IMG/VR virus record: IMGVR_UViG_3300021356_000055 | Coordinates: 1 to 38,910 of that record | DNA from: a virus | DNA: 38,910 nucleotides | Reading direction: 5' to 3' (one strand) | Shown here: one piece after another, positions 1,219 through 32,540 of the stretch | Layout of the letters: each line of letters opens with the position of its first letter | Numbering within the stretch: position 1 is the stretch's first letter | Notes under the pieces: model-generated | What the model was told of the DNA's origin: nothing | The model's input: the letters and a program-made list of their open reading frames with translations, nothing else | Database searches by the model: none | Translations under genes and position numbers: made by a program

Positions 1219-1271
1219 GGAGAGTCTCCAATCTATTGAGGCAGGCCCACCATGGGCGCGCCGTTTCCTAG

Positions 1272-1299
1272 ATTGTACAGACTGGAGCCACCTTGTACA
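1272..1299 (-). promoter_or_regulatory. Sigma70-like promoter of the DUF932 cassette
   Basis: Read on the minus strand: TGTACA, 16-bp spacer, TACAAT. The -10 matches consensus at 5 of 6 positions and the -35 at 4 of 6. Both elements overlap TGTACA palindromes (1294-1299 and 1274-1279), so a protein binding these would occlude the promoter. This is weaker than the other cassette promoters. Confidence 0.5.
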
Positions 1300-1367
1300 G
1301 AGCAGTTTCGGCTTTTTTCTGTCCTGCCTGAGCCTGTACAAAAACATATATATGCCGGGCTTGTACA
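1274..1367. promoter_or_regulatory. Cluster of four TGTACA palindromes (candidate operators)
   Basis: TGTACA occurs at 1274-1279, 1294-1299, 1335-1340 and 1362-1367, at spacings of 20, 41 and 27 bp; the first two intervals are close to two and four helical turns. The two distal copies lie in a direct repeat (each near an ATATA tract followed by GTTTTTGTACA on the minus strand). Another copy sits in the spacer of the promoter at 2282-2310 and one at 38528-38533. Operator function is inferred from placement only. Confidence 0.45.
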
Positions 1368-1372
1368 AAAAC

Positions 1373-1460
1373 TTATATAGATATATAAAGGGCGGGGCAG
1401 GGCAGAGCCTCCGCTCGTGCGTGTGGGGGTGGAGCCTCGACCCCTTAAGTGATAGCCCCT
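1373..1460. repeat. Dispersed intergenic repeat, copy R1
   Basis: Member of a five-copy family found between cassettes. It has an AT-rich tract (TATATAGATATATAAA), a GC-rich middle and the hallmarks GGAGCCTC and TGATAGCCCC at the right end. This copy is diverged in the middle and has GAGCCTCCGC duplicated near 1405. It sits between the terminator at 1465-1502 and the DUF932 promoter. Confidence 0.7.
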
Positions 1461-1464
1461 AAGC

Positions 1465-1502
1465 AAAAAAAAGAGAGAGCCGACCCCGAAGGGCCGACTC
1501 TC
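1465..1502 (-). terminator. Rho-independent terminator
   Basis: Minus-strand 12-bp stem (GAGAGTCGGCCC, loop TTCG, with two G-U pairs) followed by TCTTTTTTTT. It directly follows the cysteine-rich gene ending at 1514. Confidence 0.88.
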
Positions 1503-1513
1503 CTGATTGGAGT

Positions 1514-2242
1514 CTATCGGAAGGCGGGACCATGCAAGGGATTAAAGATGTTCTTTGCCCCTTTACTAGGATCGCACAATAAACACTGCTCACACTGAAC
1601 CGGGTTATCGTACCCCTTTTGAGTTTGGGCTGTATTGGGGCACAAAATCTCGCTCTTGCGAGGCTCACAGTTTGCCGCTCTGAAATAGCGCCATTCGGGA
1701 TCTTCCGGGATATCGTAGTAACTTTCGACGCTGGCCATTAACCATTTACGCCAAATCCTGAACCGACCCTCGCGCCATTGATGGGTATATCCTACCGATC
1801 CCAAACCCGCTTCATCTAGCGCTTCCCAAATCGGCTCATGCGCTTTAAAGGGAACCGCAACCGGATCACCGAAAGCACCCAACCGGATCGACTTGCCCCA
1901 TGAAATAACCGTATCCCGGACTTCTTCGAATCCCGAAACCGGAAGGTTAACTGCGGAATTGTAAACCGCATTGATTCCCAAATCGTTAACGTAACAGGTG
2001 ACCGATCCCTTTCGCCGATCTCCATCTACGTCAAACCGTCCCTGATGGATACAGGTCCCACAAATAGACTCCGATAGTTCCTGAGACTTGCGAGAATCCG
2101 ACACCTTGCATCCGTGATCTGGGAGATACCACGTCTGAACCATGTTGCCCGTTTTGACATTGCGGGTATCCTTTGTCAAAACTCCGATGACGGGTAGCCC
2201 GTTAATCTCCGATGGCCCCCTGTAAAAAACCACGTGCCTCAT
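1514..2242 (-). CDS. Cysteine-rich conserved phage protein (DUF7227-like)
   Basis: A 242-residue protein. It resembles a conserved phage family of unknown function that I recall as DUF7227, on the basis of the SIRLGAFGDPVAVP, GSVGYTHQW and WRYFRA segments. Cysteines are grouped: CGTCIH then a CYVN near residues 60-85, and near the C-terminus LCPNTAQ followed by CEQCLLC. These could bind zinc or an iron-sulphur cluster, which is inference. The start is the ATG at 2242, 6 nt after GATTGGAG, not the longer in-frame start at 2281, which lies upstream of the leader hairpin. Single-gene cassette with its own promoter and terminator. Confidence 0.65.
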   Translation of the reverse strand: MRHVVFYRGPSEINGLPVIGVLTKDTRNVKTGNMVQTWYLPDHGCKVSDSRKSQELSESICGTCIHQGRFDVDGDRRKGSVTCYVNDLGINAVYNSAVNLPVSGFEEVRDTVISWGKSIRLGAFGDPVAVPFKAHEPIWEALDEAGLGSVGYTHQWREGRFRIWRKWLMASVESYYDIPEDPEWRYFRAANCEPRKSEILCPNTAQTQKGYDNPVQCEQCLLCDPSKGAKNIFNPLHGPAFR

Positions 2243-2257
2243 TCTGTACTCCAATCC

Positions 2258-2274
2258 GGTGGCCCCATGCCACC
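2258..2274 (-). promoter_or_regulatory. 5'-end mRNA leader hairpin (copy 1)
   Basis: Minus-strand GGTGGC-loop-GCCACC stem placed 6 bases after the -10 box, so it would begin at about the first transcribed base, and just before the GATTGGAG ribosome-binding site. The same element occurs at 3190-3208 and 4548-4566. Confidence 0.65.
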
Positions 2275-2281
2275 TAATCAA

Positions 2282-2310
2282 ATACTACTGTACAGAATAA
2301 AACCTTGCAA
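2282..2310 (-). promoter_or_regulatory. Sigma70-like promoter of the cysteine-rich gene
   Basis: Minus strand TTGCAA, 17-bp spacer, TAGTAT. A TGTACA palindrome (2289-2294, within CTGTACAG) lies in the spacer next to the -10, as at the DUF932 promoter. Spacing and position relative to the leader hairpin match two sister promoters. Confidence 0.72.
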
Positions 2311-2341
2311 CCCATTAACCTTGTTTTTTTTTGACGGTAAA

Positions 2342-2433
2342 AATCTATAAATAAACATATACATATTGCATAACCAGAGCGTCCAGCCAGAGCCGTGCGC
2401 GGGGGGGAGCCTCCGCTGGATATGATAGCCCCT
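2342..2433. repeat. Dispersed intergenic repeat, copy R2
   Basis: AT-rich tract with ATAAATAAACATATACATAT, then CCAGAGC, GGAGCCTCCGCTGGATATGA and TGATAGCCCC. The right half is almost identical to copy R3. It lies between terminator 2438-2470 and promoter 2282-2310. Confidence 0.75.
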
Positions 2434-2437
2434 CCTA

Positions 2438-2470
2438 AATAAAAAGAAGAGGCGGGCCTTTCGGCCCGCC
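2438..2470 (-). terminator. Rho-independent terminator
   Basis: Minus-strand GGCGGGCC-GAAA-GGCCCGCC perfect 8-bp stem followed by TCTTCTTTTTATTT, starting a few bases after the stop codon at 2477. Confidence 0.88.
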
Positions 2471-2476
2471 CCCTTG

Positions 2477-2704
2477 TTAGTTCCAACCGTCTTGGAGTTC
2501 AAGAATAACCTTGTCCATTTTTGCCAAAGCGTCTTTCTCCGCTCCAGCGACAACGTAGAATTCACTGCGGGAGACGCTTTCCCATCCATCTCTTATTGTT
2601 GTCACCAGTAGGGTGACTTTCCACATCGAGAGTCCTGCCGATCCAATCGGAACTGGCAGATCGGTTTTGTCTGCGAACCACTTTGCCTTTACCCTTTTCA
2701 CCAT
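2477..2704 (-). CDS. Small hypothetical protein, 75 aa
   Basis: Not recognised. Starts MVKRVKAKWFADKTDLPVPI and ends in ILELQDGWN; it looks like a small alternating beta/alpha protein with no membrane segment and no cysteine. The ATG at 2704 follows GATTGGAG by 6 nt; the longer frame to 2794 would run through the intercistronic hairpin and is unlikely. It is second in a two-gene cassette behind the 140-aa gene, separated by a TTCG hairpin. Confidence 0.65.
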   Translation of the reverse strand: MVKRVKAKWFADKTDLPVPIGSAGLSMWKVTLLVTTIRDGWESVSRSEFYVVAGAEKDALAKMDKVILELQDGWN

Positions 2705-2727
2705 TGTAATCTCCAATCCAAAAATGC

Positions 2728-2745
2728 GGGGGGCCGAAGCCCCCC
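2728..2745 (-). other. Intercistronic GC hairpin with TTCG loop
   Basis: Minus-strand GGGGGGC-TTCG-GCCCCCC followed by GCATTTTT and then GATTGGAG of the next gene. It could be a partial terminator or a processing/stability element that sets the ratio of the two genes. The same flanks (AAACCAAGGG ... CCCGCA) recur at 3403-3424, 4207-4226 and 37708-37726, so these hairpins share ancestry. Confidence 0.6.
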
Positions 2746-2751
2746 TTGGTT

Positions 2752-3174
2752 TTACTGCTTGTTGTCGTCGTGAACTTCTGGGTCGTTGAGCCACTTGCCC
2801 AACACTTTGCTTGCGGTCCTCTTGTCGATGTCAAACCGAACTTCAAGGTACTCACCTGCTCCAAGCATGTTGGTGACCCCGGACCTGCGAAGACCTCGCA
2901 AGTACTCGAACATCTCACGTTCTTCAAAGGTGTACTTGTCGGGACCGTGCTTAGTGTGAAGTTCCATTTTGGCAAAGTCCAAAAGTTCCTGACTTGCACC
3001 GTGGTCCTTGAGGTGCTTCAGGGTCCTGTACACTGCATTCTTTGCCTTGGGGAAGTATGCCAGAATCAACACCTTGGCGACTTCCTTGGTGGCACTGCTT
3101 CTGAAGCAGTTTTCTACATACCGGGTCATGCCATCCCAGTCGGGGGTGCAATCCACCGCGTTCTCTTCAGCCAT
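2752..3174 (-). CDS. Small phage protein with GVTNMLGA motif, 140 aa
   Basis: A mostly helical 140-residue protein of unknown function. Its C-terminal third, GVTNMLGAGEYLEVRFD followed by an acidic/basic helix ending LGKWLND, resembles a recurrent small domain I recall from marine phages (GVTNMFGA-type); no role is known. Start ATG at 3174, 6 nt after GATTGGAG; the frame continues to 3249 but that would pass through the promoter and hairpin. First gene of a two-gene cassette driven by the promoter at 3216-3244. Confidence 0.68.
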   Translation of the reverse strand: MAEENAVDCTPDWDGMTRYVENCFRSSATKEVAKVLILAYFPKAKNAVYRTLKHLKDHGASQELLDFAKMELHTKHGPDKYTFEEREMFEYLRGLRRSGVTNMLGAGEYLEVRFDIDKRTASKVLGKWLNDPEVHDDNKQ

Positions 3175-3189
3175 CGTAGGCTCCAATCT

Positions 3190-3208
3190 AGGTGGCCCCA
3201 TGCCACCT
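3190..3208 (-). promoter_or_regulatory. 5'-end mRNA leader hairpin (copy 2)
   Basis: AGGTGGC-ATGGG-GCCACCT on the minus strand, beginning 7 bases downstream of the -10 box at the predicted transcript start, and followed directly by AGATTGGAG. Confidence 0.68.
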
Positions 3209-3215
3209 ACACACA

Positions 3216-3244
3216 AGCCTAGCATAGTATTTTTGACATGCCAA
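3216..3244 (-). promoter_or_regulatory. Sigma70-like promoter
   Basis: Minus strand TTGGCA, 17-bp spacer, TAGGCT, then TGTGTGTAGG. The -10 and the bases after it are nearly identical to those of the promoter at 4574-4602, and similar to the one at 37744-37772. Confidence 0.72.
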
Positions 3245-3298
3245 CCCAATCTGGGTTTTTTTTCGTGCTATTTTTTTCAGGCCCCAGTCTACAAAAAA

Positions 3299-3390
3299 TA
3301 ATAGATATAGATACACAGCGACGACCAGAGCAGAGAGCGTTGGCCCGCGTGTGCGCGGAGCCTCCGCTGGATATGATAGCCCCTAATGAA
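3299..3390. repeat. Dispersed intergenic repeat, copy R3
   Basis: Contains AATAGATATAGATACACAGC, GACCAGAGCAGAGAGCGTT, GCGCGGAGCCTCCGC and TATGATAGCCCCTAATGAAA. It is nearly identical to copy R4 along its length apart from scattered substitutions. Confidence 0.8.
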
Positions 3391-3392
3391 AT

Positions 3393-3424
3393 AAAAAAAT
3401 GCGGGAGGGACCGAAGTCCCTCCC
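3393..3424 (-). terminator. Rho-independent terminator
   Basis: Minus-strand GGGAGGGAC-TTCG-GTCCCTCCC stem (9 bp) followed by GCATTTTTTTATTT, just beyond the stop codon of the gene at 3432. Confidence 0.9.
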
Positions 3425-3431
3425 TTGGTTG

Positions 3432-3770
3432 TTACTTCGTGAACCGTCCCACAAACTCGATCTGAGGAGGGTCGTAGAACTTGGTGTTGAGGATATCACA
3501 CTCCTCAGCGACCTTGGGATCTCCTCCTTCGATCTTCTTGCTTGCTTGGATAGGCGAGTACAGTCCCGCCTTTGCAACGTGGGGAGTCCAAGAGGACTCA
3601 GAAGGAACCTGATTTGGTCCCATGTAGTAAAGCACCAAGAAGGGTGCTTCTTCAGAGAACGTGCCAAAAGCGATGTGCTTGTGGCTCAGAGTACGGACGA
3701 TCCGTACAACCTCAAAAGGTCGCTGATTTCGTTCAGCGGAAACGCCACTAGGGGAAAGCGAGTCACTCAT
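3432..3770 (-). CDS. Small hypothetical protein, 112 aa
   Basis: Not recognised. Residues 1-20 are Ser/Pro-rich and probably flexible; the rest has mixed beta/alpha character with the segment APFLVLYYMGPNQ and ends IEFVGRFTK. No cysteines or membrane helix. I chose the ATG at 3770 because GATTGGAG precedes it by 6 nt; a second ATG 4 codons upstream would place the ribosome-binding site inside the gene. Single-gene cassette with promoter 3793-3821 and terminator 3393-3424. Confidence 0.66.
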   Translation of the reverse strand: MSDSLSPSGVSAERNQRPFEVVRIVRTLSHKHIAFGTFSEEAPFLVLYYMGPNQVPSESSWTPHVAKAGLYSPIQASKKIEGGDPKVAEECDILNTKFYDPPQIEFVGRFTK

Positions 3771-3792
3771 AGTGACCTCCAATCTGCTGTCG

Positions 3793-3821
3793 ATTAAAAG
3801 GTATGGAGAAACCTATGTCAA
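3793..3821 (-). promoter_or_regulatory. Sigma70-like promoter
   Basis: Minus strand TTGACA (consensus), 17-bp spacer, TTTAAT. The predicted start gives a leader of under 20 bases beginning near AGATTGGAG, with no leader hairpin. The sequence around the -35 (ATTGGGGTTGACATAGG) is shared with 4574-4602 and the region from the -35 into the spacer with 38424-38452. Confidence 0.78.
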
Positions 3822-3923
3822 CCCCAATATTTGGCCAGTATTCGGCTATTTTCGGCATTCTAGAAAAAAGTTTGTCAGGACTGCCAGCGGAACCCGTAGT
3901 TCTGTGGGGTCGTCTACAGAGAT

Positions 3924-4013
3924 CAATAGATATAGATATACAGCGAGGACCAGAGCAGAGAGCGTTCGCCCGTGTGTGCGCGGAGCCTCCGCAGAAAATG
4001 ATAGCCCCTAATG
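3924..4013. repeat. Dispersed intergenic repeat, copy R4
   Basis: CAATAGATATAGATATACAG, GACCAGAGCAGAGAGCGTT, GTGTGTGCGCGGAGCCTCCG and ATGATAGCCCCTAATG. Closest relative is R3. Located between terminator 4014-4046 and promoter 3793-3821. Confidence 0.8.
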
Positions 4014-4046
4014 AAATAAAAGAAGAGGCGGGCCTTTCGACCCGCC
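4014..4046 (-). terminator. Rho-independent terminator
   Basis: Minus-strand GGCGGG-TCGAAAGG-CCCGCC stem followed by TCTTCTTTTATTTC, nine bases after the stop codon of the 42-aa membrane protein gene. Confidence 0.87.
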
Positions 4047-4054
4047 CCTTGGTT

Positions 4055-4183
4055 TTACTTGAAGAAGATGGTCCAGATGATGAGTGCTGGCCACATCAAG
4101 ATGAACCCTAAGGTCATCACAACGTGAAGAGTCATGCCCTTCGGCACTTTCCCTTCGTTTACTTCACGCTCCCAGTCTTTCAT
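4055..4183 (-). CDS. 42-aa single-pass membrane protein
   Basis: Starts MKDWEREVNEGKVPKGMT and continues into one hydrophobic helix (about residues 18-41, containing VMTLGFILMWPALIIWTIFF) ending in Lys. A charged N-terminal part outside the membrane and a single C-terminal helix is all that can be seen; no family was recognised. The ATG at 4183 follows GATTGGAG by 5 nt, which decides against the longer frame starting at 4240. It is the second gene of the first cassette. An early inner-membrane protein could act in host takeover or superinfection exclusion, but this is speculation. Confidence 0.68.
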   Translation of the reverse strand: MKDWEREVNEGKVPKGMTLHVVMTLGFILMWPALIIWTIFFK

Positions 4184-4206
4184 GCTTCCTCCAATCGGAA
4201 AGTTGC

Positions 4207-4226
4207 GGGAGGGCCGAAGCCCTCCC
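4207..4226 (-). other. Intercistronic GC hairpin with TTCG loop
   Basis: Minus-strand GGGAGGGC-TTCG-GCCCTCCC (8 bp). It lacks a T-run, so it is more likely an mRNA stability or processing element than a terminator. Sits between the coiled-coil gene and the small membrane protein gene. Confidence 0.6.
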
Positions 4227-4236
4227 TTGGTTTTGT

Positions 4237-4533
4237 TCAACTGATCTGCTTGAGCAGTTTGCTGATCTGCTCTTCGATCCTAGCCCGTCTCCCGTGCCCG
4301 CCAGTGGTCTTCAGTCTTGCATCGTGTTCCAGCAAACGAGCGGTTTTCATGAGCGTGTCAGCGATCCCGTGCAGGTTTTCGGCGACCTCCACAAAACGAT
4401 CCACACCATCCTCCTCGATGTCCCGAACGGCATCCTCCAACTCGTGAACTGCAACGGTGTGCAATTCTTGACTCTTGTCCCACGCAACCTTTACCGCTTT
4501 CTTTCGTGCGGCATTCAACTCTTGAAGAGTCAT
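4237..4533 (-). CDS. Small coiled-coil protein, 98 aa
   Basis: Not recognised. The sequence is almost entirely helical and charged, with heptad-like spacing through the central section (HELEDAVRDIEEDGVDRFVE) and a basic Gly-rich stretch (TTGGHGRRAR) before a last amphipathic helix, EEQISKLLKQIS. This suggests an oligomeric coiled coil. Start ATG at 4533 lies 5 nt after GATTGGAG. It is the first leftward gene from the divergent control region, so probably among the first genes expressed. Confidence 0.68.
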   Translation of the reverse strand: MTLQELNAARKKAVKVAWDKSQELHTVAVHELEDAVRDIEEDGVDRFVEVAENLHGIADTLMKTARLLEHDARLKTTGGHGRRARIEEQISKLLKQIS

Positions 4534-4547
4534 GTTGACTCCAATCT

Positions 4548-4566
4548 AGGTGACCCCATGCCACCT
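4548..4566 (-). promoter_or_regulatory. 5'-end mRNA leader hairpin (copy 3)
   Basis: Minus-strand AGGTGGC-ATGGG-GTCACCT. Compared with copy 2 one arm has changed C to T, turning a G-C pair into a G-U pair, so the stem is kept. It begins 7 bases after the -10 box. Confidence 0.68.
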
Positions 4567-4573
4567 ACACACA

Positions 4574-4602
4574 AGGCTACACTGTGCTCTTTTTTATGTC
4601 AA
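4574..4602 (-). promoter_or_regulatory. Sigma70-like promoter, first leftward cassette
   Basis: Minus strand TTGACA (consensus), 17-bp spacer, TAGCCT, then TGTGTGTAGG and the leader hairpin. Confidence 0.78.
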
Positions 4603-4936
4603 CCCCAATATCGATTTTATTTTGTACTGCTTTTCGACACTCGCAAGGCTCGGATCGACCCGAGGGCAGGGGTGGGTCGAACATATAGATCCGCCAGAGA
4701 GACCCCCGAGGCCCCCCAAAGGGCGCGCTTCCCAGATCAAAGGTCTCCTTGCAAAAAAAATAAAAACCCTATTGCAGTGGTGGTGTATTCGTGTAAGAAC
4801 CCGGTAGGTTAACCTTGTATATCGTTTGTTTGCACCGACGAGTACAAAGGCCCTGCCTCGCGGCCCCGTTCAGGGATAACTGCAAACCCAGAGTTTGGTG
4901 CAGTTTTCTTAATCTTTGAACGAAAAGGAGTCTGCT
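4603..4936. other. Divergent non-coding control region
   Basis: No convincing gene is seen between the leftward promoter and the capsid gene. The region holds a partial relative of the dispersed repeat (near 4681-4720: CATATAGATCCGCCAGAGAG followed by GC-rich sequence), an A-rich tract at about 4750-4770, and a bulged stem near 4880-4905 (CTGCAAAC ... GTTTGGTGCAG) followed by TTTTCTT just ahead of the capsid ribosome-binding site. No good TTGACA/TATAAT pair was found for the rightward strand, so the late promoter may depend on an activator. Confidence 0.5.
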
Positions 4937-6088
4937 ATGGCAGGCGGTACCTATGGACAGTCAGGCACTGTCAACTGGCCGATTACTGGCGAACTCGAAA
5001 CAGGCGTCAATGAGCACGGCTATGTACGTTTTCTAGCGCAAAAGTTTGTCGATACTCTTTACATGAAGGCAATGCAAACCGAGTCTGACTTGGAGCGTTT
5101 GCTGTCTCGTGAGGAAATCGACGGCAACCCCATGCTGATCGACGCTCTGAAGCCTCTTCCCTCTCCTGAAAATGACGAGTTGACGAAAGATCGCGCTCGT
5201 TTTGGAGATTTGACTGCTAAGGTCATCCCGACTGAACAGCGTCAGATGCTTCCGTCTTTCTACGATTACATGTTCTACGTTGATCCTCGGGATATTCCGG
5301 CGATGAATCGTAAACTCGACCCTACGGGTCAAATGCTGACCTCTGTTTTGGGTGCTTTTAACATCCAGAAGGACAAGGCCATCCTGACGGCTCTTGACGC
5401 AGAGGTCACCGTTCACGATGCCGGAGACCTTCAGCAAGCCGGAGGAGCAGTCACCTACCTTAATGATGGTGGCTCTGACATTGGCGTTGATTTTGGCGCA
5501 GGTTTCTACAACGGTACTACGGAACTTTACCGGACGCCTTTGACTGAGGCCGCCGCTGGTGACGTTGTGATCGGGCTTGGTTTGACCATCAAAAAGTTGA
5601 TTGAGGCTCGCAAGCAGTTGCACCTCAACAACGCCATGAACAGCGGTCAGCGCCCAATGCTTGTTATTCACCCGACTCAGTTGCACCAGTTGCTGGCTAA
5701 CTCTGAGCAGGTGACTAACGCTGACTACAACGCTGTTAAGCCTTTGGTAACGGGTGAGATTTCCCAGTTCCTTGGCATGGACGTTGTGACCAGCAACCAT
5801 GTCACTGTTGCAGAGAGTTTGAGTGGCAACATTGCAGGTGGAACGGGTTCTGGCGAGACTGAAGACGAAGTGGTCCAAAATGGTCACTACGCTTACGTCA
5901 TCATGCCAAATAGCCTTTACTACGGTTGCTCTGGGGTGGACACGAAGACGGACATTCTTCCTGAAAAAGGACACACTATGCAGGTTGCATCTTACATGCA
6001 CTGCGGAGCGGTTCGCTTGGACGGCAAAAAGATTGTTCGCATTGAGTGTTCTGACTCTGACACGGCGACGGTCGTTGACGGCGCTTGA
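4937..6088 (+). CDS. Major capsid protein
   Basis: A 383-residue protein identified as a HK97-fold major capsid protein of the podovirus type. Recognisable parts are TYGQSGTVNWPITGELE at the N-terminus, the E-rich helical spine (TESDLERLLSREEIDGNPM), the central NIQKDKAILTALDAEVT, and a late domain with LVIHPTQLHQLLANSEQ, GEISQFLGMDVVTSNHV and YAYVIMPNSLYYG. The start is the ATG at 4937 with AAGGAG 6 nt upstream; the frame continues to a TTG at 4916 that would swallow the ribosome-binding site. It opens the late rightward operon and its stop overlaps the next start (TTGA). Its expected partners, portal and scaffold, are encoded on the opposite strand about 24-26 kb away. Confidence 0.85.
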   Translation: MAGGTYGQSGTVNWPITGELETGVNEHGYVRFLAQKFVDTLYMKAMQTESDLERLLSREEIDGNPMLIDALKPLPSPENDELTKDRARFGDLTAKVIPTEQRQMLPSFYDYMFYVDPRDIPAMNRKLDPTGQMLTSVLGAFNIQKDKAILTALDAEVTVHDAGDLQQAGGAVTYLNDGGSDIGVDFGAGFYNGTTELYRTPLTEAAAGDVVIGLGLTIKKLIEARKQLHLNNAMNSGQRPMLVIHPTQLHQLLANSEQVTNADYNAVKPLVTGEISQFLGMDVVTSNHVTVAESLSGNIAGGTGSGETEDEVVQNGHYAYVIMPNSLYYGCSGVDTKTDILPEKGHTMQVASYMHCGAVRLDGKKIVRIECSDSDTATVVDGA

Positions 6089-6534
6089 TCTTGAGCGGCG
6101 GTAAGACAACGTACTTAGCCCAGCAGTTTTTGAAGTCGTTGCAGGGGAACCCCGTAGCGACATTCACGGAAACATGGGTCACGTTGTTTACCACACCGCC
6201 CACCTCGGACACTTTGTCTGGGATTGCGGCGGCGGTTGAGTGGTCCCCGGACGTAGCCCGAATAAGGGTTAATGCTCCGGGGGCCTCTGAGCCACATTGG
6301 ATCTCTACCCCTGAGCAGACTGACGAAGGCGCACAACTGTATGTTCAAGGCCCGATACAGTGGGCGGACATTGCAGGATTGTCTGAAACAGTAACTGTGA
6401 AAGCGGTGGGGATTTTTTCAGCAAGTTCAGGGGGGCAACTTCTGTACTGGCAAAACTTGTCAAAGGACAGATCCGTAAGCAATGGCGATACAATGCTGTT
6501 TCCGACCGGATCGCTAAAAGTTACGGAAAAATGA
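6085..6534 (+). CDS. Small beta-rich structural protein (tail-fibre/decoration-like)
   Basis: A 149-residue protein. The pattern TWVTLFTTPPTSD near the N-terminus, IQWADIAGL in the middle and VGIFSASSGGQLLYW, then VSNGDTMLFPTGSLKV at the end follows a common small phage structural family (typically LALFTSDPT ... AIFDA.TGG.LL ... V.AGDT...P.G.L), variously annotated as tail fibre or head-decoration protein. Beta-sandwich fold is expected. Start is a TTG overlapping the capsid stop; a second TTG at 6091 is equally possible, as neither has a strong ribosome-binding site. Position after the capsid favours a capsid-decorating role. No signal or membrane segment. Confidence 0.65.
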   Translation: MILSGGKTTYLAQQFLKSLQGNPVATFTETWVTLFTTPPTSDTLSGIAAAVEWSPDVARIRVNAPGASEPHWISTPEQTDEGAQLYVQGPIQWADIAGLSETVTVKAVGIFSASSGGQLLYWQNLSKDRSVSNGDTMLFPTGSLKVTEK

Positions 6535-7253
6535 ACATGAGTGGTTCTGGAATGGGCGACAAGATGGACTTGGTTCATACGCCAGCGAAAGACGCTTCCC
6601 CGAATAAGGTCGGTGTCTACGGCTGGTTTGACATCAAGCATACTTGCGCAGAAACAGGAAAAGTGACCGATTTCAGCGGTCCTAATGCGATCACCCGAGA
6701 TGGCTTGGGCGCTCTTTGCTCCGGCCTTCATCCGGGGACGACAGGCTTCCCTGCCGCAACTGCCGCTAACACGGTATGCGGGATTTTGCTAACAGGAACA
6801 GGCACCGATTTTTCTCCCGGGGCAGATGTCGGTACAGGTACTTACGCGGCGCTGGCTCCCGGCACTACGGGTGACGTCATCGCACCGTTTACAAACACTG
6901 CGTTGGGTAACGGCACGACGAGCAACCCGGACACCTCTACAAGCATGTACTTCAAGTCGAGCGGTGGAAGTAGCCCGGGCAACGACCCTGTGGACATCTT
7001 TGACTCTGCATCCACAGACGCTGATCCGATGGTCACTTCGATTGCCACGATTACTGTCAAAAACTTGGGCACTACCCAAAGGACCGTTAATGGAATCTTT
7101 GTGGCTGATTGTCATGGCACTGCTGGCGCTACGATCAAGTTGCTGGCAGGAAGGGTTACAAGTGGCTCCGGCACCGCGGCGATGACCGAAGTGGTGATGA
7201 ACCAAAACGACACCTTGGCGATTGATTACTCGATTAGCGTAAACGCTACCTGA
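6531..7253 (+). CDS. Hypothetical structural protein, 240 aa
   Basis: Gly/Thr/Ser/Ala-rich, low in charge and probably all-beta. The N-terminal part has WFDIKHTCAETGKV and NAITRDGLGALCSG, and the C-terminal part has ITVKNLGTTQRTVNGIFVAD and NQNDTLAIDYSISVNAT, a layout seen in phage head-fibre or tail-adaptor proteins that share the AGD/NQNDTL...DYSI end. I do not recognise a named family. It starts with an ATGA overlap with the preceding gene, so it is translationally coupled, and is followed by a terminator-like hairpin, which closes the capsid sub-operon. Confidence 0.6.
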   Translation: MNMSGSGMGDKMDLVHTPAKDASPNKVGVYGWFDIKHTCAETGKVTDFSGPNAITRDGLGALCSGLHPGTTGFPAATAANTVCGILLTGTGTDFSPGADVGTGTYAALAPGTTGDVIAPFTNTALGNGTTSNPDTSTSMYFKSSGGSSPGNDPVDIFDSASTDADPMVTSIATITVKNLGTTQRTVNGIFVADCHGTAGATIKLLAGRVTSGSGTAAMTEVVMNQNDTLAIDYSISVNAT

Positions 7254-7269
7254 TCTTGGCCTTTCTTTA

Positions 7270-7317
7270 GGGGGGAAGCGGGTTTGTGCGGGTCTCCGCT
7301 CCCCCCGTTTTAGTGAG
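7270..7317 (+). terminator. Hairpin terminator/attenuator inside the late operon
   Basis: GGGGGGAAGCGG ... CCGCTCCCCCC (11-bp stem with one bulged A), loop of about 14 bases, then GTTTTAG. It separates the capsid group from the tail group and no separate promoter is seen after it, so partial read-through would lower tail gene expression relative to capsid. Confidence 0.7.
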
Positions 7318-7323
7318 GTTCTA

Positions 7324-8430
7324 ATGCCGTCAAGATCCATCGAAGTTACTTTTAATGGTGATGAAGCCTCTCAGACAGAAGGCGTTCCCGTCTCTATAGG
7401 TCTTGAAGGGCCAGTGACACTAGGGCGTTGCCGGGTCAAGAAATCGTCTTCAGCCGGGACGTGCTTGTTGAACTTTGATTGTTCAGGAAGCATGAACAGC
7501 AAGTATCTGTCTTTGGGCGATGGGGCGTTCAACATAGACCCGCAAAACGTGGCTTCTGTCTACTCGAATAACGGAGACCTTGACGAGATCCCGAACTCAT
7601 ATACGGGTGATTTAATGACTGCCGCTACAGGGGAAGAGCCGACGTTTGGCACCTCTGGTCAAAACATAACAAGCAAACCTGTAATCCAAATCGGATCCAC
7701 TTCAAAACTTAAGTACACTTCTAACGCTCCAGAGTTTGCATCAGGGGAGCCGTTTACGATTTTTGTTGTTGTTGACGAAGCAGATAACCAGTCCTTTAGG
7801 CCCGTTCTGGGGTCTGCAAACACAAGTGGATTTTTTACGAGTTCAACGTGGTACGGAAACAATAACAGCCGAAAAGTTTACGTCAGAAACGATGCTGGAA
7901 CTGCTTTAACGTCTTCTGGTTCTGATGCTTTTCAAGACTCAGACATTCGGGTTTTAAGAAGAGACTCTAGCAACAATGTCACAGAGTACAGGCGTGGAGT
8001 GCAGACTATTAGCGGGTCTCTCAGCGGAGACTTCAAGTTTCCTAACCTTGGCTGGACTGCCAACCAAGTGATGGGCAGTACTGCGACATACATCTTTAAC
8101 GGTCTAAAAGTCTCCCGTGTCATTATATGCGATGAGTATTTTGACGATGATGCAAGAGAATATGTCGAAGCATGGCTGGCTTGGGAGTACGGTTTGCAAA
8201 CATTAACCAACTCTTACTTGCCTAGTTCACACGTTGGATATCAAGTTAATCCAAGGGGAACAATCACGAAGTCTTTTTCCTCTGACTTTGACCTCAGCGG
8301 TTTAAGTGCAAATACATACAGTAGCCTTGTACAGCCTAGCATTAGCACTATATCTGGCCCGATTACATTCACATTGGAAAAAGTTCATAAAATCGGATAT
8401 ATCACTGTCGAAGTCAATGTGAGTTACTGA
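7324..8430 (+). CDS. Concanavalin A/LamG-like lectin-domain protein
   Basis: 368 residues. Residues from about 50 to 300 follow the phage LamG/concanavalin A-like pattern: LMTAATGEEPTFG, a beta-rich core with FTIFVVVDEADNQS, and the typical end YIFNGLKVSRVIICDE, then REYVEAWLAWEYGLQ and LPSSHVGY, equivalent to the usual ...VEGYLAWKWGL...LP..HPY motif. Such domains bind glycans in phage tail fibres or spikes, so a host-recognition role is likely. A Ser/Thr-rich C-terminal tail (about residues 310-368) with SGPITFTLEKV may form a further beta domain. ATG at 7324 follows GAGG weakly. Ends with a TGATGG overlap with the adhesin/tail-tube fusion gene. Confidence 0.7.
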   Translation: MPSRSIEVTFNGDEASQTEGVPVSIGLEGPVTLGRCRVKKSSSAGTCLLNFDCSGSMNSKYLSLGDGAFNIDPQNVASVYSNNGDLDEIPNSYTGDLMTAATGEEPTFGTSGQNITSKPVIQIGSTSKLKYTSNAPEFASGEPFTIFVVVDEADNQSFRPVLGSANTSGFFTSSTWYGNNNSRKVYVRNDAGTALTSSGSDAFQDSDIRVLRRDSSNNVTEYRRGVQTISGSLSGDFKFPNLGWTANQVMGSTATYIFNGLKVSRVIICDEYFDDDAREYVEAWLAWEYGLQTLTNSYLPSSHVGYQVNPRGTITKSFSSDFDLSGLSANTYSSLVQPSISTISGPITFTLEKVHKIGYITVEVNVSY

Positions 8431-11234
8431 TGGCGATAACGAAAGTTTCCCCTAATGCGGGTGACCAGATAACGGCTTTTGCAAATTCTGCAGAGTTTTC
8501 TTTGTCGCACAGCAACTTGCAAGAAGGCGATGTTGTGTTCGTTGTTATTCACAGAAGAAGGAATACGACAGGCACAACCAACACAAACCCCTTAACGATT
8601 ACGTCAGGAAACGCAAACAGGCAAAGCCTTAACACGGCTTCCCGCCAAATGGTTCAGTTGGGTTCAGCATGGTTTCACGTATATCAAGACTCAAATAAAA
8701 ATAATGAGTGTACTGCTGGTGCGTTTAGGTTTGTTGTTGGTGCAAACGATCTAACGAGTGATGCTTTGAACATAAGCATTGATATGACCACTCAACTTCG
8801 CACTGGCATAGGAATGGTAGCCTTCAGGGGCGTTGACACTGGAACTTACTGGTCAACAACTACTTCTGGTACAAATGAAATCTTAACTAACAACTTCGAC
8901 ACAACAACTGATGATAGCATTGAGTTTACGCCTCCTGATGGAGATGCTGACAATAACTTTTGGAACAATAACACTGGCAATCTAGATGTTCCTCACACTG
9001 TTGTTGCAATGGGTGCATTTGGTCGTGTGGGTTTTACTGCAAACGCTGGAACAACAGACTGGACTGAAGGATTTAGTTTAGCAGGAGGCGACACTTTTAC
9101 TGATTCCGGTTCTAACAATACGTTGCTTTGTATGTACAGAAGTTTCTCTACATATTCTGAAACCGGCATGGATAGCGTTACGGTCACACAGCCGACGACT
9201 AATAGTAACCAGAGGTCGTGGAGTTTCTGGCAGGTTCTTCGTGAAGCCGCAACTGCTACAGACCACGCTGTATCATTTGCAGACTCTGCAAGCGCGGAAG
9301 ACACCCGCACGTTTACTGAAGACGCTGAAGCCTTCACGTTCAACGAAGAAGACACGGCCAGCGCAAGTGATTCTCGAAGTTTTGTAGAGGACACCCAGTC
9401 TACCGCGTTTTCTGAGGAAGACACATCTGAGGTAAGCGATTCGGTTGCTTTTGTTTCAGAGCGTGTTTTCACGGCGACAGATACCGCGGAGTCAGAAGAC
9501 ACTAGTACTTTTACCGAAGACGTCCAAGCCTTCACGTTTGATGAGGAAGACACAGCCAGCGCTGAGGATTCACGCACTTTCACTGAAGATGCGCAGGCGT
9601 TTACTTTCAATGAAGAAGACACGGTTAGCGCAGACGACGACCGGACGTTTGCGGAAACATCTGGCGAAACCCGGACGTTTGAAGACACCGTAGGGGTCCA
9701 AGATACGCTAACACCCGTTGAAGACTCGCAAGCCTTTACCTTTAACGAGGAAGACACCCTTAGCGTTCAAGACACCCTGACTCCTGTAGAAGATGCAGAG
9801 TCTACGGTGTTTTCTGAAGAAGACACTTCTGAGGCAAGTGACTCCGGCACTTTTGTTTCAGCCCATGTTGTTACAGCAACTGACACCGTAGGCGTTGAGG
9901 ACACTCGCACTTTTGTAGAAGACGCAAAGGCGTTTGCTTTTGACGAATCAGATACCGTTAGCGTTGAAGACTTCCGGACGTTTACTGAAGATGCGCAGGC
10001 GTTTGCTTTCAGCGAAGAAGACACAGCCAGCGCAGACGACGACCGAACATTTACGAAAACGCCGTTTGGAGCGCAAGAAACACGGTCCTTTACTGACACT
10101 TCCTCATCAAATGATGTGCAGATTCTGGGACTGGCTCGATCTTTCTCTGACACTCTCTCTGTTCAAACCTCGCTTGTTACTGAAGAAGATGTTGTCAACT
10201 ACACGGAGTCTTTCCCGGACTCTTCTGCGGCTCAAGATTCTCTGAGTCTTGTTTTTGTTCAAAACCGCGCTTTCGTTGACTCTTCTGACACAAACGATTC
10301 TTTCGACCCGACTTCGCACTTTGTTTTCAACCAAACAGAGGCCGCCAATACTAATGATTCTTTGGCCGTTGTCTCAGGTGGATTGGCTGACTTCACAGAC
10401 ACCGTAAGCGTTGAGGACACAAGCCTCTTTGCTTATGTCTATGAAAGCCAGTCTTCTGTTGCAGATGCGATTGCTACAGACCACAGTAAAGCATTGGCGA
10501 TTGGTGACATTGTTGGAGTGGGTCTCATTGAGGGGCAGTCCCCTCCTGAACTTTTGACGATAGGGGAAGCCTTGGCTCTTATAGACATTTACAACACCGC
10601 TCTCAATGCTTTGGGAGTCGGCACGATTACAGCGGTTACTGACTCTAGCCCTCAGGCAACGATTCTAAATGACGTTTGGCCGGGCTTCAGGAAGCAGTTT
10701 TTGACAGACCATTCTTGGAACGGCGCTAAGAAAACAGTGGCCTTGTCTCGATTGCAAGACTACCAGAACACAGACGTTGTTCCGGCAGGCGACCGTTGGA
10801 AGTACGCCTATGTTTTGCCCGCCGATTACCTTAGAGTTTTGCGGATTAACGGGTACGAAAGATACAACGCAACTCAAAGGCACTTGCAAAATGCGTTTGA
10901 AATCATGGTGGTGAACTACAGTGATAGTTCTACAACAACCAAGGATGTTCGCTGTCTTTTGACGACAGAGGGGACCGTTAATCTAGAGTACATTTTCGAC
11001 CCCGGGAATGACGACATTGATTTGCTGGGGGCGCAAACTTCTCATGCGGTAGGACTGTCTTTGGCCCATTATGTTGCGCGTAACTTCGGAAAGACGCCGC
11101 AAGAGATTGCTGTTCTTGCACAAGAGGCGAGGGTTGCGGTTTCAGCGGCTAAGGGGTCTGACGGCCAAGAGAACTCCTCTAGGCTTCGACCAGACATGAA
11201 CATTCTAGAAAGCAGGCATTGGTGGGTTGGGTAA
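8430..11234 (+). CDS. Adhesin-like repeat protein fused to tail tubular protein A
   Basis: A 934-residue protein in three parts. Residues 1 to about 275 form a Gly/Asn/Thr-rich beta domain ending near SWSFWQVLREA. From about 277 to 690 come roughly 18 acidic repeats of 18-26 residues with consensus like EEDTASAEDSRTFTEDAQAF. From about 715 to 934 is a T7 gp11-type tail tubular protein A: IDIYNTALNALGVG, ILNDVWPGFRKQFLTDHSWN, YVLPADYLRVLRING, VNLEYIFDP, LSLAHYVARNFG. T7 gp11 is about 200 residues and stands alone, so the fusion is unusual. An in-frame TTG at 10572 preceded by AGGGGA (10562-10567) could start the tail domain separately. Start ATG overlaps the upstream stop. Confidence 0.8.
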   Translation: MAITKVSPNAGDQITAFANSAEFSLSHSNLQEGDVVFVVIHRRRNTTGTTNTNPLTITSGNANRQSLNTASRQMVQLGSAWFHVYQDSNKNNECTAGAFRFVVGANDLTSDALNISIDMTTQLRTGIGMVAFRGVDTGTYWSTTTSGTNEILTNNFDTTTDDSIEFTPPDGDADNNFWNNNTGNLDVPHTVVAMGAFGRVGFTANAGTTDWTEGFSLAGGDTFTDSGSNNTLLCMYRSFSTYSETGMDSVTVTQPTTNSNQRSWSFWQVLREAATATDHAVSFADSASAEDTRTFTEDAEAFTFNEEDTASASDSRSFVEDTQSTAFSEEDTSEVSDSVAFVSERVFTATDTAESEDTSTFTEDVQAFTFDEEDTASAEDSRTFTEDAQAFTFNEEDTVSADDDRTFAETSGETRTFEDTVGVQDTLTPVEDSQAFTFNEEDTLSVQDTLTPVEDAESTVFSEEDTSEASDSGTFVSAHVVTATDTVGVEDTRTFVEDAKAFAFDESDTVSVEDFRTFTEDAQAFAFSEEDTASADDDRTFTKTPFGAQETRSFTDTSSSNDVQILGLARSFSDTLSVQTSLVTEEDVVNYTESFPDSSAAQDSLSLVFVQNRAFVDSSDTNDSFDPTSHFVFNQTEAANTNDSLAVVSGGLADFTDTVSVEDTSLFAYVYESQSSVADAIATDHSKALAIGDIVGVGLIEGQSPPELLTIGEALALIDIYNTALNALGVGTITAVTDSSPQATILNDVWPGFRKQFLTDHSWNGAKKTVALSRLQDYQNTDVVPAGDRWKYAYVLPADYLRVLRINGYERYNATQRHLQNAFEIMVVNYSDSSTTTKDVRCLLTTEGTVNLEYIFDPGNDDIDLLGAQTSHAVGLSLAHYVARNFGKTPQEIAVLAQEARVAVSAAKGSDGQENSSRLRPDMNILESRHWWVG
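9258..10450 (+). repeat. In-frame degenerate ~66-69 bp coding repeats
   Basis: DNA counterpart of the acidic repeats: about 12 well-kept units (9258-10075) followed by about 6 degenerate ones. Phrases such as GAAGAAGACAC recur at near-regular spacing. A higher-order block of three units around 9355-9545 is echoed around 9760-9955 (both contain the series STxFSEEDTSE, then VS, then a TATDT), which points to segmental duplication rather than single-unit expansion. Confidence 0.75.
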
Positions 11235-14200
11235 ACTACCCGGACTTTCGGTTCGGCACACTAGATCGAGGCGCCCGTGTTTCTCCACAAGTGGCCTTGC
11301 GTTCGCTTGCGGATTGCAATAACGCTTTTGTAGAAACTAGGGGTTCAATCACTCGCAGGCCGGGGACGGAAGACCAAGGCGTAGACCTCGACTACCCGTT
11401 TATCTGTGTGCCTTATTACAGCGAAGAGCAAACGTACTTGCTTTTGATTACTTACGGTGAGAATAAGATTGAGTCTTATGACTACGCCCACGCTAGCGAT
11501 TCAGCAGATTTAGTAGCAAGTTCTACCCAGAACCTGACAGAAGGGACAGGCAGTTCCAAGTCGGGGGTGACCAACCTTCGAGGGCGGATTTACCTGTATC
11601 GCGTAGACGAAAAAGACTCAGAAGTAGGTTCTTCTAATGTAGGTTTTGTAGAACAAATCAACTGGGCAAGCCACAAGTACGATTACCTGTATGGGTCTGA
11701 CCACATTGTCCGCAGGGCGCAAAAGCAAGTTTCAGGCTTCCTTAAGCCTGATCTTTCTAACTACCAGCACTCTTGGACAGCAGACCAAGTAAAAGGGATT
11801 AAGTACGCACAGCACACTGACAACCTCTTTTTGTTTGTGCCCGACTTCCCAACGATCCGAATCCAAAGGGCCGACATAGGCTTTACCAGCACGTTACCTA
11901 CAGTAAGCAAGCCAAATACTCCTCATGCCCATGTTACCTCCGACAACAGTAGCGAAAGGCTAAGGCAGGATGTTGAGAGTTCGGTTACGGCTGAAAGTTG
12001 GACTTTAGAAGTTGATGTTTTGGAGCCAGAGTTGATGAGGCGCATCACTCCTCCAGTTAATCTTTTGATAAACTACGTCGATGGAACTCTGCTTGACTTT
12101 ATTTCTAGCGACGATTTCTTTACGAATGAAATGAACAACTCTTTCTTTGCTTACGGCAAGGGGCGACAAAGCAACGACACAAACCATGAAACATTTAGCA
12201 GTTGGCTTTATTCAGGGCTTTTAGGTCGTGTAGATCAGATCAGAAGTAGTCGCGTTGCAAGGATTCGTGGAATAAATGGCACTAGACCCAGTGAAATAGT
12301 TTCCGGCACTTTTTCAGATGGCACTGAGATCTATGACTCCACGGATGCGAACAACAAGGTTCTCAAAGGTGATGTAGCGACTAAGACTTCAGATTTGTTG
12401 CAAACTTGGGTTGGCCCTTGGACTCGGGATAAAACTCTAACAGGTGCAGATTTTTTTCAGGTAGACCCTGACTCAAACACAGTTATAACTGGAGTCAACA
12501 AGCAAGAAGATCCCACTACAGGGCTTGCCCTTCCCGGAAGCCCTCATTATGTCCATCAAATCTCAAACACAGAACTTGAGTACTTTTACTACATTGATTC
12601 GACTTCAACTATAGGTGGAATACTGGTCGACCAGTTTGGCCTTGACGAAACGGCTGTAGGGAAAGTTGTTGAAATCGTTCAAGACGGTTCAAACAGGTTT
12701 GCCTACTACATCTACAACGTAACGAACACTTCAGGTGAATACGATTTTAGCGGGACCTTGCGCTTTCATGTGCAAGAGCATTTGTTGTTTAACTCTTCTT
12801 ATTCCACAGTAAACAGGCAAGCAAGCGACATTAACAGGACTTCTTCCTTTGACCGAAGCGACGAGTTTTATGTTTACTCCGTAAAAGCGCCGCATGTAAT
12901 GATGGGTTGCATGGGGTACGACATAGACCCGAATACCGCCGAAGGACAAGCGACAAAAGCCACCGTATACGTTAATGACCCACAGTTTCTTCCTGCAAAT
13001 CTGGAGAAGGGGAATCGCCCGCTTAAAACGGCTGGCGTAACCGCTAGTCCGGGTGCTTACGATGCTCCGCTTATGGCTGGAGGATCGATTTTCTTCAATG
13101 ACGGAATCTTTCGACCAACAAGAAGAGTGAGTTCTGTTGCTTACGAAGGCTATTGGGAGAAGTCGCCTTCTCACGCTACGGCCCAGAACTTTGTTTCTTA
13201 TGGTACAGGCGGGTCTTCCGGCTTTGCTTCTTGCGGAGAACAGCATCAGGGTCGCCTTGTTGTAGGTGGTTTTGGCGGTGCGTTTGAAGATGCGGTAGCG
13301 TTTAGTCGTTCTAACCAGCCCAGTCAAATGCGGGTTCAGCGCCTAGACTCCGCAGACGACCCTTTTTCTTTGCAGTTGGGGCAGTCTACAGAAGAGCATG
13401 TTGCTTGGATTGGCAAAACTCAGGCAGGTCTGGTTGTGGGCGGAAGGACTGGCGAGTATGTCGTCCAAGGTTCTCCTATCAGTGCTTTGAGTGTAGGTTA
13501 CCAAAGGGTTAGTGCGGTAGGCGGGGCTTCGGCTAAACCTGCTTATACTGACAATGAAGTAGTGTTTTTGGCGCGGGACAAGCGCAGTTTAGGAGGCGTG
13601 CGGGTTGCTGAGGCATCTGACCAGACGCTATTTTCGCAACGCTTGTCAGACATTGCTTCTCAGTTGTTCCTTAAAGACGTTGTTGGAACAGGCTATATTT
13701 ATAGCCCCTACCCGATATTCTTCTTCTTAAAAGACGACGGCGAAGTCGTGTCATACACCCGTGACCAAGGCGTGGGCGCATTCACCCGTTTCTCTCATGC
13801 TGAGGGCACGTTTGTTTCCATGGCCTCTGCGGTGCGCTCTTCTAAGATTTCTGACACCCTGTTCTTTTGCGTTAAGCGCACGATTGGCTCTGAAACAAAG
13901 TTCAGGCTAGAACGCCTTAACTTCTCTGCCCACTTAGATTCTCAGCGTTGCACTTCTCAGTACACGTTGGCGAACTACGGTTCCCAGTCAAATGTCGATT
14001 CGATTACTACGACAAAAGTGAGGTTTTTGAACCCATGGCAGGGTTCTAGGGTGTCCGTGATTACCGTAGATGCTAATGGTGATAAGGTGTTTAGAGGTGA
14101 CGATTTTGAAGTGCAGTCCGAGGATATGGGGTCTGGGGTGACTGATTACTACGTTAGCCTTGCTTCTCTAGGACTGACAACTGCACCCTCTAAGGTCATT

Positions 14201-14494
14201 ATTGGATTCAACTTTAACGGCACCTTTGCCCCTGCGACCGTTACCGAGGTTCCCGGGTATATGTGCAGTTTTACTAGCGGCCTTTTGTTGGGAGAGAACC
14301 TTAATGGTCTTTCTGTAACAAAGGGTGATGTTGTGCCTGTGTCTACAACAGATACGGGTTCTAATAGTTCGGGCTGGCTAAATGTCTACAATCTAGGGCA
14401 TTATAGTCGAGACAAAGGCCCTACATTTACATTAAAAGGGCCGTTTGGATCAACCGTGCAGTCCCTTTCTGTTGAAGTGGATAGTGAGGACTAA
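11219..14494 (+). CDS. Tail tubular protein B (T7 gp12-like)
   Basis: 1091 residues, longer than the ~794 of T7 gp12. The start of the family is visible in DRGARVSPQVALRSLADCNN followed by ETRGSITRRPGTE, and the later FFNDGIFRP, ASCGEQHQGRLVVGG, AFSRSNQPSQMR, WIGKTQAGLVVGGRTGEYVV and DNEVVFLARDKR match the nozzle protein pattern seen in many podoviruses. It forms the tail nozzle beneath the tail tubular protein A ring. The frame starts at a TTG (11219) overlapping the previous gene by 16 bp; GTG at 11222 is an alternative. The extra length lies in the middle (about 240-560) and probably forms added surface domains. Stop and next start overlap as TAATG. Confidence 0.85.
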   Translation: MVGWVNYPDFRFGTLDRGARVSPQVALRSLADCNNAFVETRGSITRRPGTEDQGVDLDYPFICVPYYSEEQTYLLLITYGENKIESYDYAHASDSADLVASSTQNLTEGTGSSKSGVTNLRGRIYLYRVDEKDSEVGSSNVGFVEQINWASHKYDYLYGSDHIVRRAQKQVSGFLKPDLSNYQHSWTADQVKGIKYAQHTDNLFLFVPDFPTIRIQRADIGFTSTLPTVSKPNTPHAHVTSDNSSERLRQDVESSVTAESWTLEVDVLEPELMRRITPPVNLLINYVDGTLLDFISSDDFFTNEMNNSFFAYGKGRQSNDTNHETFSSWLYSGLLGRVDQIRSSRVARIRGINGTRPSEIVSGTFSDGTEIYDSTDANNKVLKGDVATKTSDLLQTWVGPWTRDKTLTGADFFQVDPDSNTVITGVNKQEDPTTGLALPGSPHYVHQISNTELEYFYYIDSTSTIGGILVDQFGLDETAVGKVVEIVQDGSNRFAYYIYNVTNTSGEYDFSGTLRFHVQEHLLFNSSYSTVNRQASDINRTSSFDRSDEFYVYSVKAPHVMMGCMGYDIDPNTAEGQATKATVYVNDPQFLPANLEKGNRPLKTAGVTASPGAYDAPLMAGGSIFFNDGIFRPTRRVSSVAYEGYWEKSPSHATAQNFVSYGTGGSSGFASCGEQHQGRLVVGGFGGAFEDAVAFSRSNQPSQMRVQRLDSADDPFSLQLGQSTEEHVAWIGKTQAGLVVGGRTGEYVVQGSPISALSVGYQRVSAVGGASAKPAYTDNEVVFLARDKRSLGGVRVAEASDQTLFSQRLSDIASQLFLKDVVGTGYIYSPYPIFFFLKDDGEVVSYTRDQGVGAFTRFSHAEGTFVSMASAVRSSKISDTLFFCVKRTIGSETKFRLERLNFSAHLDSQRCTSQYTLANYGSQSNVDSITTTKVRFLNPWQGSRVSVITVDANGDKVFRGDDFEVQSEDMGSGVTDYYVSLASLGLTTAPSKVIIGFNFNGTFAPATVTEVPGYMCSFTSGLLLGENLNGLSVTKGDVVPVSTTDTGSNSSGWLNVYNLGHYSRDKGPTFTLKGPFGSTVQSLSVEVDSED

Positions 14495-28872: not shown

Positions 28873-29090
28873 CTTTGGTCACCGATCCTTTCTGCGGCCC
28901 GGATCTTGTAATACACAGATCGCCTTCCCGCTTGTACAGACAAAACTTGGGGGCAAACTTTTGCTTGGTCTTCCCCCGGAATCAAACTGGCTTCCACTCC
29001 GCAAATCTTAGACAGGCAATCCATCATTCGCTTGCCGTCACTGGTTTTGAGGAAACTGGACAACCACAGTATCTCTTCTTTATTCAGCAA
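28869..29090 (-). CDS. Small portal-adjacent protein, Bbp19-like
   Basis: 73 residues. Leu-rich N-terminal helix (EEILWLSSFLKTSDGKRMMD), then a central Cys-containing helix and the C-terminal motif VQAGRRSVYYKIR, comparable to the EGRRSV ending of small phage proteins of the Bbp19 type found beside portal genes. The start is a TTG with GGAGG 6 nt upstream, inside the end of the portal gene. Role unknown; place suggests head assembly. Confidence 0.6.
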   Translation of the reverse strand: MLNKEEILWLSSFLKTSDGKRMMDCLSKICGVEASLIPGEDQAKVCPQVLSVQAGRRSVYYKIRAAERIGDQR

Positions 29091-30654: not shown

Positions 30655-30657
30655 GGT

Positions 30658-32007: not shown

Positions 32008-32540
32008 TTTAATCGCCCCTCTGACAACAGCGAACCCCTTTGTCCACCCATGCGACCCTTGCCGACAAGCCAAGTACCTAACTGCTTGGCTTCCTCACTG
32101 GTCAAATGGATCTCGCACAAGCATTGGTTTGTGAACTGACCGTCCATGTCTTTCTCCGGGAACAACTGGATCATTACGCCCGTCTCAGTCTCCGCTATGT
32201 TCACCGCTGTTTCATGCATTTGATTGTCAGTAATCACGTCCCACTCCTGTACTAACTCTGGAATCTTGCAGTTTTCCTGCACATCTGAAGGCTCGGTCCA
32301 AAAGTCGATTCGACTCCTGACCTGAAAAGTTCGCAAAAGAACCATTATGACACGAACATCCAGAGCGGTGGAGCGGTCTTCCAAGCCTCGCATTCCCCGG
32401 CTTACCCTACGGCACACATCTCCAAAGCCCTCTTCGTCGTCCCCAAAACCCAGTCCAAAGTCATGGAGGAGGGACCAAAGCAGGTCCCTGCACTCCACAA
32501 TCGTCTCTGGATTAAAAGTCGAAGTCGTCTGATTCGGCAT
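32004..32540 (-). CDS. Hypothetical protein upstream of terminase, 178 aa
   Basis: Not recognised. From ATG 32540 it begins MPNQTTSTFNPETIVECRDL, has an acidic Gly-rich section (FGLGFGDDEEGFGD), and a beta-rich C-terminal half with GVMIQLFPEKDMDGQF and CLCEIHLTSEEAKQLGTWL. The frame is open to 32663, which would overlap the SSB-like gene by 152 bp; GTG at 32498, just after that gene's stop, is another possible start. Ribosome-binding sites are weak for all. By position it could be the small terminase subunit, but there is no helix-turn-helix pattern to support that. Confidence 0.55.
   Translation of the reverse strand: MPNQTTSTFNPETIVECRDLLWSLLHDFGLGFGDDEEGFGDVCRRVSRGMRGLEDRSTALDVRVIMVLLRTFQVRSRIDFWTEPSDVQENCKIPELVQEWDVITDNQMHETAVNIAETETGVMIQLFPEKDMDGQFTNQCLCEIHLTSEEAKQLGTWLVGKGRMGGQRGSLLSEGRLK

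Follow-up and report, generated by a model that had tools for sequence, protein, structure and literature searches.

Tail tubular protein A (TTPA), the adaptor ring protein of short-tailed phages, has so far been regarded as small, invariant plumbing. Long fibres attach at the adaptor ring in T7 and SU10 (PMC6702177, PMC9509320). The tail tube of SPP1 mixes gp17.1 and gp17.1* in a 3:1 ratio (PMC8718954), and some phage endolysins have in-frame internal starts that bring full-length and short chains together in mixed multimers (PMC9430671). A full-text literature search combining TTPA with fusion, extension, esterase or internal start returned no description of TTPA fusions like those reported below, most subscription papers lying outside its scope. 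Here, an environmental phage is described in which TTPA forms the C-terminus of a much longer protein. The chances are about even that its gene is a two-product tail gene, giving a long arm-bearing form and a plain ring form.

Gene Order and Domain Layout

The window analysed is a whole IMG/VR record of 38,910 bases, a single metagenomic contig from an environmental virus of bacteria (Table 1). Its capsid protein and ring domain are distant kin of those of HTVC010P-like pelagiphages, at about 25-38% identity over the aligned parts. In HTVC010P the portal, capsid and tail genes are consecutive on a single strand, whereas in the window the portal and terminase genes are on the minus strand (29080-32073), far from the plus-strand capsid and tail genes (4937-14494). 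An ORF of 1862 residues at 18605-24193, perhaps an internal virion protein, has only a weak match, to PHROG 16310 at residues 1582-1730.

Table 1. Features of the window, and TTPA fusions on other IMG/VR contigs (last four rows)
Feature	Positions	Strand	Remarks
Capsid protein	4937-6088	+	PF19821; conserved upstream neighbour
PHROG 240 head protein	6085-6534	+	conserved upstream neighbour
ORF without family, 240 aa	6531-7253	+	part of the ~4 kb insertion
ORF without family, 368 aa	7324-8430	+	part of the ~4 kb insertion
Fusion ORF, 934 aa	8430-11234	+	open for 934 codons
N-terminal part, residues 1-274	8430-9251	+	family unassigned; low-confidence strands; proposed host-facing head
Acidic array, residues 275-700	9252-10529	+	diverged 23-residue repeats; proposed stalk
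Shine-Dalgarno-like AGGGGA	10562-10567	+	duplex energy -6.4 kcal/mol; four bases before TTG
In-frame TTG, residue 715 (M-A-L-I-D-I-Y-N)	10572-10574	+	candidate internal start; coincides with starts of stand-alone homologues
TTPA/adaptor ring domain, 220 aa	10572-11234	+	PHROG 394; PDB profile and fold matches
Tail tubular protein B (TTPB, nozzle), 1091 aa	11219-14494	+	PHROG 376, E 1.2e-41; next gene
L108 SASA/SGNH-TTPA fusion	2369-4678		770 aa in all, counted from first ATG
L232 SASA/SGNH-TTPA fusion	2324-4657		778 aa
L176 SASA/SGNH-TTPA fusion	1328-4657		1110 aa
L212 (lineage L212/L213/L215) SASA/SGNH-TTPA fusion	794-4612		1273 aa

The C-terminal part of the fusion ORF is confirmed as a TTPA/adaptor ring protein. 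PHROG 394 (“tail protein”) matches residues 718-930 with an E value of 7.9e-29 over profile positions 5-189 of 190, and a profile of 35 TTPA domains matches the Carin1 connector (8ck1_E, 7e-45) and LME-1 orf17 (9efk_T, 8e-26) in the PDB. The structural model of the fusion is confident only over residues ~711-920, a four-helix bundle with a beta dock, and this predicted fold matches 8ck1, 9efk, 6r21, 7box and 5mu4, T7 gp11, KP32 TTPA and the Carin1 connector among them. These matches, in one frame with the upstream residues, agree with an earlier sequence-only reading that had described a T7 gp11-type C-terminus reached without an intervening stop. The domain directly precedes the TTPB gene, as is usual for an adaptor. 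In place of the 190-220 residues usual for a stand-alone TTPA there is a frame of 934 residues, within which only TTG 10572 could give rise to a product of 220 residues.

The fusion ORF opens with an ATG that overlaps the stop of the preceding gene (TGATG) and has a weak Shine-Dalgarno, with a duplex energy of -2.2 versus -6.4 at the internal TTG. Residues 1-274 have no match in Pfam, PHROG or NCBIfam. The sequence-only reading had placed a beta domain here, and had proposed structure prediction for residues 1-280. Both models contain some beta strands at low confidence, and residues 1-292 folded without relatives yield an unusable model (pLDDT 33). A beta-rich fold is plausible. The same reading's count of about 18 Asp/Glu-rich repeats is a fair one, since residues ~275-700 show a 23-residue periodicity, with additional echoes at 66 and 89, and an array of ~425 residues holds about 18 such units; a strict core motif is present in 10 of them. 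The array contains 100 D/E against 15 K/R (24% Asp+Glu, net charge -85). Composition and position suggest that residues 1-700 may form the head and stalk of an adhesin, and the earlier label “adhesin” is kept at that strength.

In each of the 80 relatives gathered with the first TTPA alignment, TTPA is a protein of its own, and its start falls no more than a few codons from window residue 715. The distance from the head-protein gene to TTPA in the relatives examined is at most about 240 bases or one ~70-codon gene. Because this gap is so short, the window can be said to carry an insertion of ~4 kb, whose final piece is joined in frame with TTPA. The two other ORFs of the insertion are missing from the corresponding locus in the relatives examined, and family searches with both gave no match. 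Apparent upstream extensions of TTPA were rejected in L092, where the 197 residues reflect an open frame in GC-rich sequence and a Met is found at the usual start, and in MW202722 and Klebsiella phages, where TTPA is a separate CDS. PHROG 9239 (“tail tubular protein”, 741 positions), which is matched by the L108 TTPA domain, has its TTPA-like part at the N-terminus, a hint that TTPA also occurs with long extensions at its C-terminal end.

TTPA Fusions in Other Lineages

Sampling of other TTPA branches covered at least 250 TTPA frames in at least 255 loci, and nearly all of these frames are stand-alone. Fusions were found in at least 5 of 59 clusters among the matches listed, a proportion that is not a natural frequency. 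A hunt for the same fusion in other phages, suggested by the sequence-only reading, was partly successful: TTPA is the C-terminus of a long protein in at least four further contig lineages from IMG/VR, but single-sequence searches of viral contigs with the fusion, TTPB, the TTPA domain and the portal did not turn up any close relative of the fusion in the window.

The N-terminal modules of L108, L176, L212 and L232 are homologous among themselves and not to that of the window. L212 and L232 exceed the Pfam SASA cut-off and L176 and L108 fall short of it, whereas the N-terminal part of the window fusion has neither a SASA match nor a blastp match to the N-terminal parts of this esterase group. 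On a tail ring, a SASA/SGNH module might possibly provide virion-borne removal of surface esters. The L108 locus has a capsid gene upstream and TTPB downstream.

Evidence that such fusions are retained came from a comparison of L212 with L215, which differ at 118 of 3,834 bases (3%). The N-terminal parts have a dN/dS of about 0.16-0.19 and TTPA has one of 0.02, and the whole frame is under purifying selection. This selection, together with the recurrence of the layout, indicates that TTPA as a C-terminal anchor is a maintained architecture, and the modules anchored in this way are of two unrelated kinds or more. The fused label requires three changes on the TTPA tree. By the approximately unbiased (AU) test, the data are compatible with the esterase group having arisen once (p 0.32). 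For all six fused rows together, the test stops short of formal rejection of a common origin (p 0.08), but the N-terminal part of the window fusion is unrelated to the esterase modules.

Coding Continuity Across the Seam

Codon log-odds, trained on other structural genes and summed per 20 codons, hold at +6 to +8 in the frame of the fusion ORF from 10377 to beyond 10600, and are negative at all but one position in the other two frames. Since the codon statistics remain in frame through the seam, a frameshift artefact is unlikely, and a frameshift, if any, is confined to a few codons around the seam. The frameshift or assembly join at 10450-10570 that had been envisaged beforehand as grounds for refuting the fusion therefore has no backing from codon usage.

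A stop codon could still have been lost, by sequencing or assembly error or by recent mutation in a degenerate allele, leaving what are really two genes, the second beginning at TTG 10572. The source is a single metagenomic contig without a close relative, TTPA is stand-alone in about 80 relatives, and a TTG with a Shine-Dalgarno is the expected start of a separate TTPA gene. However, the in-frame coding statistics run right up to the seam, two separate genes would need to share a frame by chance (1 in 3) with the error striking the stop itself, and the layout recurs in other contigs, once as two diverged variants. A lost stop is thus improbable.

A Candidate Internal Start at the Seam

The in-frame TTG with AGGGGA upstream that the sequence-only reading had pointed out is present at residue 715, and ranks 17th of 335 in-frame internal NTG codons by duplex energy if an E. 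coli-type anti-Shine-Dalgarno is assumed. The accompanying argument, that TTG starts are used elsewhere in this genome, proved weak: ATG 4937 with AAGGAG is a better start for the capsid gene than TTG 4916, and TTG 11219 of the next gene is almost without a Shine-Dalgarno. G-run Shine-Dalgarno-like sites (AAGGGG, GGGGG, GTGGGG) instead of AGGAGG precede window genes at 25138 (+), 26457 (-), 30654 (-) and 37422 (-), those at the first three genes being akin to AGGGGA.

The RNA around the seam can form two mutually exclusive 6-bp stems, GAGGGG/CCCCTC (10530-10545) and TCCCCT/AGGGGA (10539-10567). In the second of these, AGGGGA at 10562-10567 pairs with TCCCCT at 10539-10544, which would mask the Shine-Dalgarno of the internal start. 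A role of this structure as a switch is not claimed, as shuffled sequences fold with equal energy, and an Rfam search gave no match.

Additional evidence for internal initiation came from the homologous position in the other fusions. The start there is a GTG with GGAGAAGG in L232 (-7.3) and a GTG with GTGGGGGA in L176 (-8.4). Two lineages count against a two-product gene: in L212 the homologous ATG has a weak Shine-Dalgarno (-3.1), and L108 has no NTG near the seam and thus no internal start there. Taken together, 3 of 5 fusion lineages have a GTG or TTG with a strong Shine-Dalgarno at the position where stand-alone TTPA starts (P about 5e-5 at a threshold taken from the window itself, against a null of 7-codon windows slid along these ORFs and their neighbours). 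P is 9e-5 to 1e-3 at other thresholds and 1.6e-3 without the window; all these values assume an E. coli-type anti-Shine-Dalgarno and count the sister rows L176 and L232, whose start codons are at different positions, separately. At the level of the signal, the pattern supports the internal initiation that had been suggested for the window. The start signals at the seams may also be fossils of a stand-alone gene.

Mixed or Uniform Rings

The proposed mechanism starts from a cassette of ~4 kb inserted between the head-protein gene and TTPA. The final member of this cassette, an N-terminal domain with an acidic stalk, precedes the adaptor in one continuous frame. Initiation at 8430 would yield the 934-residue form, and initiation at TTG 10572, with its own Shine-Dalgarno, the 220-residue ring subunit. 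Both forms would then be translated and co-assemble in the 12-subunit ring of the virion, where some positions would bear an arm, displayed outward as a long negative stalk ending in a host-facing domain. A separate fibre dock would be unneeded because the ring domain would itself be the anchor. In the T7 adaptor, the loop that links helices 1 and 2 is turned towards the nozzle, so the N-terminus lies towards the portal side; by analogy, the arm would have to exit outward from a portal-side N-terminus, and this is the main structural doubt.

The sequence-only reading had pictured twelve arms per ring. The fusion on which that picture was built is real, but twelve arms are only one option, because the internal start, if it works, gives short subunits and the ring would be a mixture of arm-bearing and plain ones. 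Twelve arms would follow from a constitutive fusion, with TTG 10572 and its Shine-Dalgarno-like site as ancestral remnants or products of chance. While the single open frame without a stop is consistent with uniform arming, and the L108 fusion, with no NTG near its seam, suggests that such a protein is viable, strong start signals are enriched at seams and twelve 700-residue arms would probably be crowded at the neck. Uniform arming is therefore a somewhat unlikely outcome. Phage assembly often includes proteolytic maturation, and a single chain cut near residue 710 would also yield an arm protein and a ring protein. Given that neither a cleavage site nor a dedicated protease was identified, and that cleavage would be superfluous with an internal start, this route is very unlikely.

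If the two-product reading is true, it would add a mode of mounting host-recognition modules to docked fibres and C-terminal Ig-like extensions, and the copy number of the anchored module could depend on an internal start codon. It is conceivable, at somewhat short of even odds, that a single gene supplies mixed adaptor rings in several short-tailed phage lineages, with the ratio of starts setting the number of covalent adhesin or esterase arms per virion. TTPA as a C-terminal anchor shifts where receptor-binding and surface-modifying functions are to be sought in short-tailed phages. What had been put forward as a possible new route for fibre attachment is better described as a covalent link that ties surface modules to the adaptor ring, a layout that recurs in at least four other lineages.

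Comparison with Known Systems

The C-terminal 220 residues of the window fusion are like T7 gp11, KP32 TTPA and the Carin1 and LME-1 adaptors in profile, fold and TTPB neighbour. Those proteins are stand-alone, with about 190-220 residues, whereas the window domain is preceded by 714. The SASA/SGNH-TTPA fusions share with the window a large N-terminal module in frame, TTPB as the next gene and, usually, an in-frame start at the seam; they differ in their esterase-like module and in belonging to a BPP-1-like TTPA branch. As in T7 gp17 and the SU10 long tail fibres, the adaptor ring would anchor receptor-binding appendages. One important difference is that those fibres are separate proteins, held non-covalently on the dock domain, while the window arm would be covalently anchored.

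The fusion belongs among tail structural subunits with appended surface domains, like SPP1 gp17.1*, lambda gpV and T5 pb6, which have appended Ig/FN3 domains. With the SPP1 gp17.1/gp17.1* type it shares, at the level of the signal, a gene that encodes both a short form and an extended one, and the proposal resembles gp17.1* further in that a tail structural subunit would bear a surface domain, which in SPP1 is confined to a minority of copies and set at translation. In the SPP1 type, however, the domain is C-terminal on a tube protein and the minority arises by frameshifting, whereas in the window it would be N-terminal on an adaptor ring and internal initiation would give the short form. The two-polypeptide endolysin LysP7951 parallels the proposal in having one frame, two starts, a common C-terminus and a mixed multimer; it is a lysis enzyme, whereas the window case would be a virion protein.
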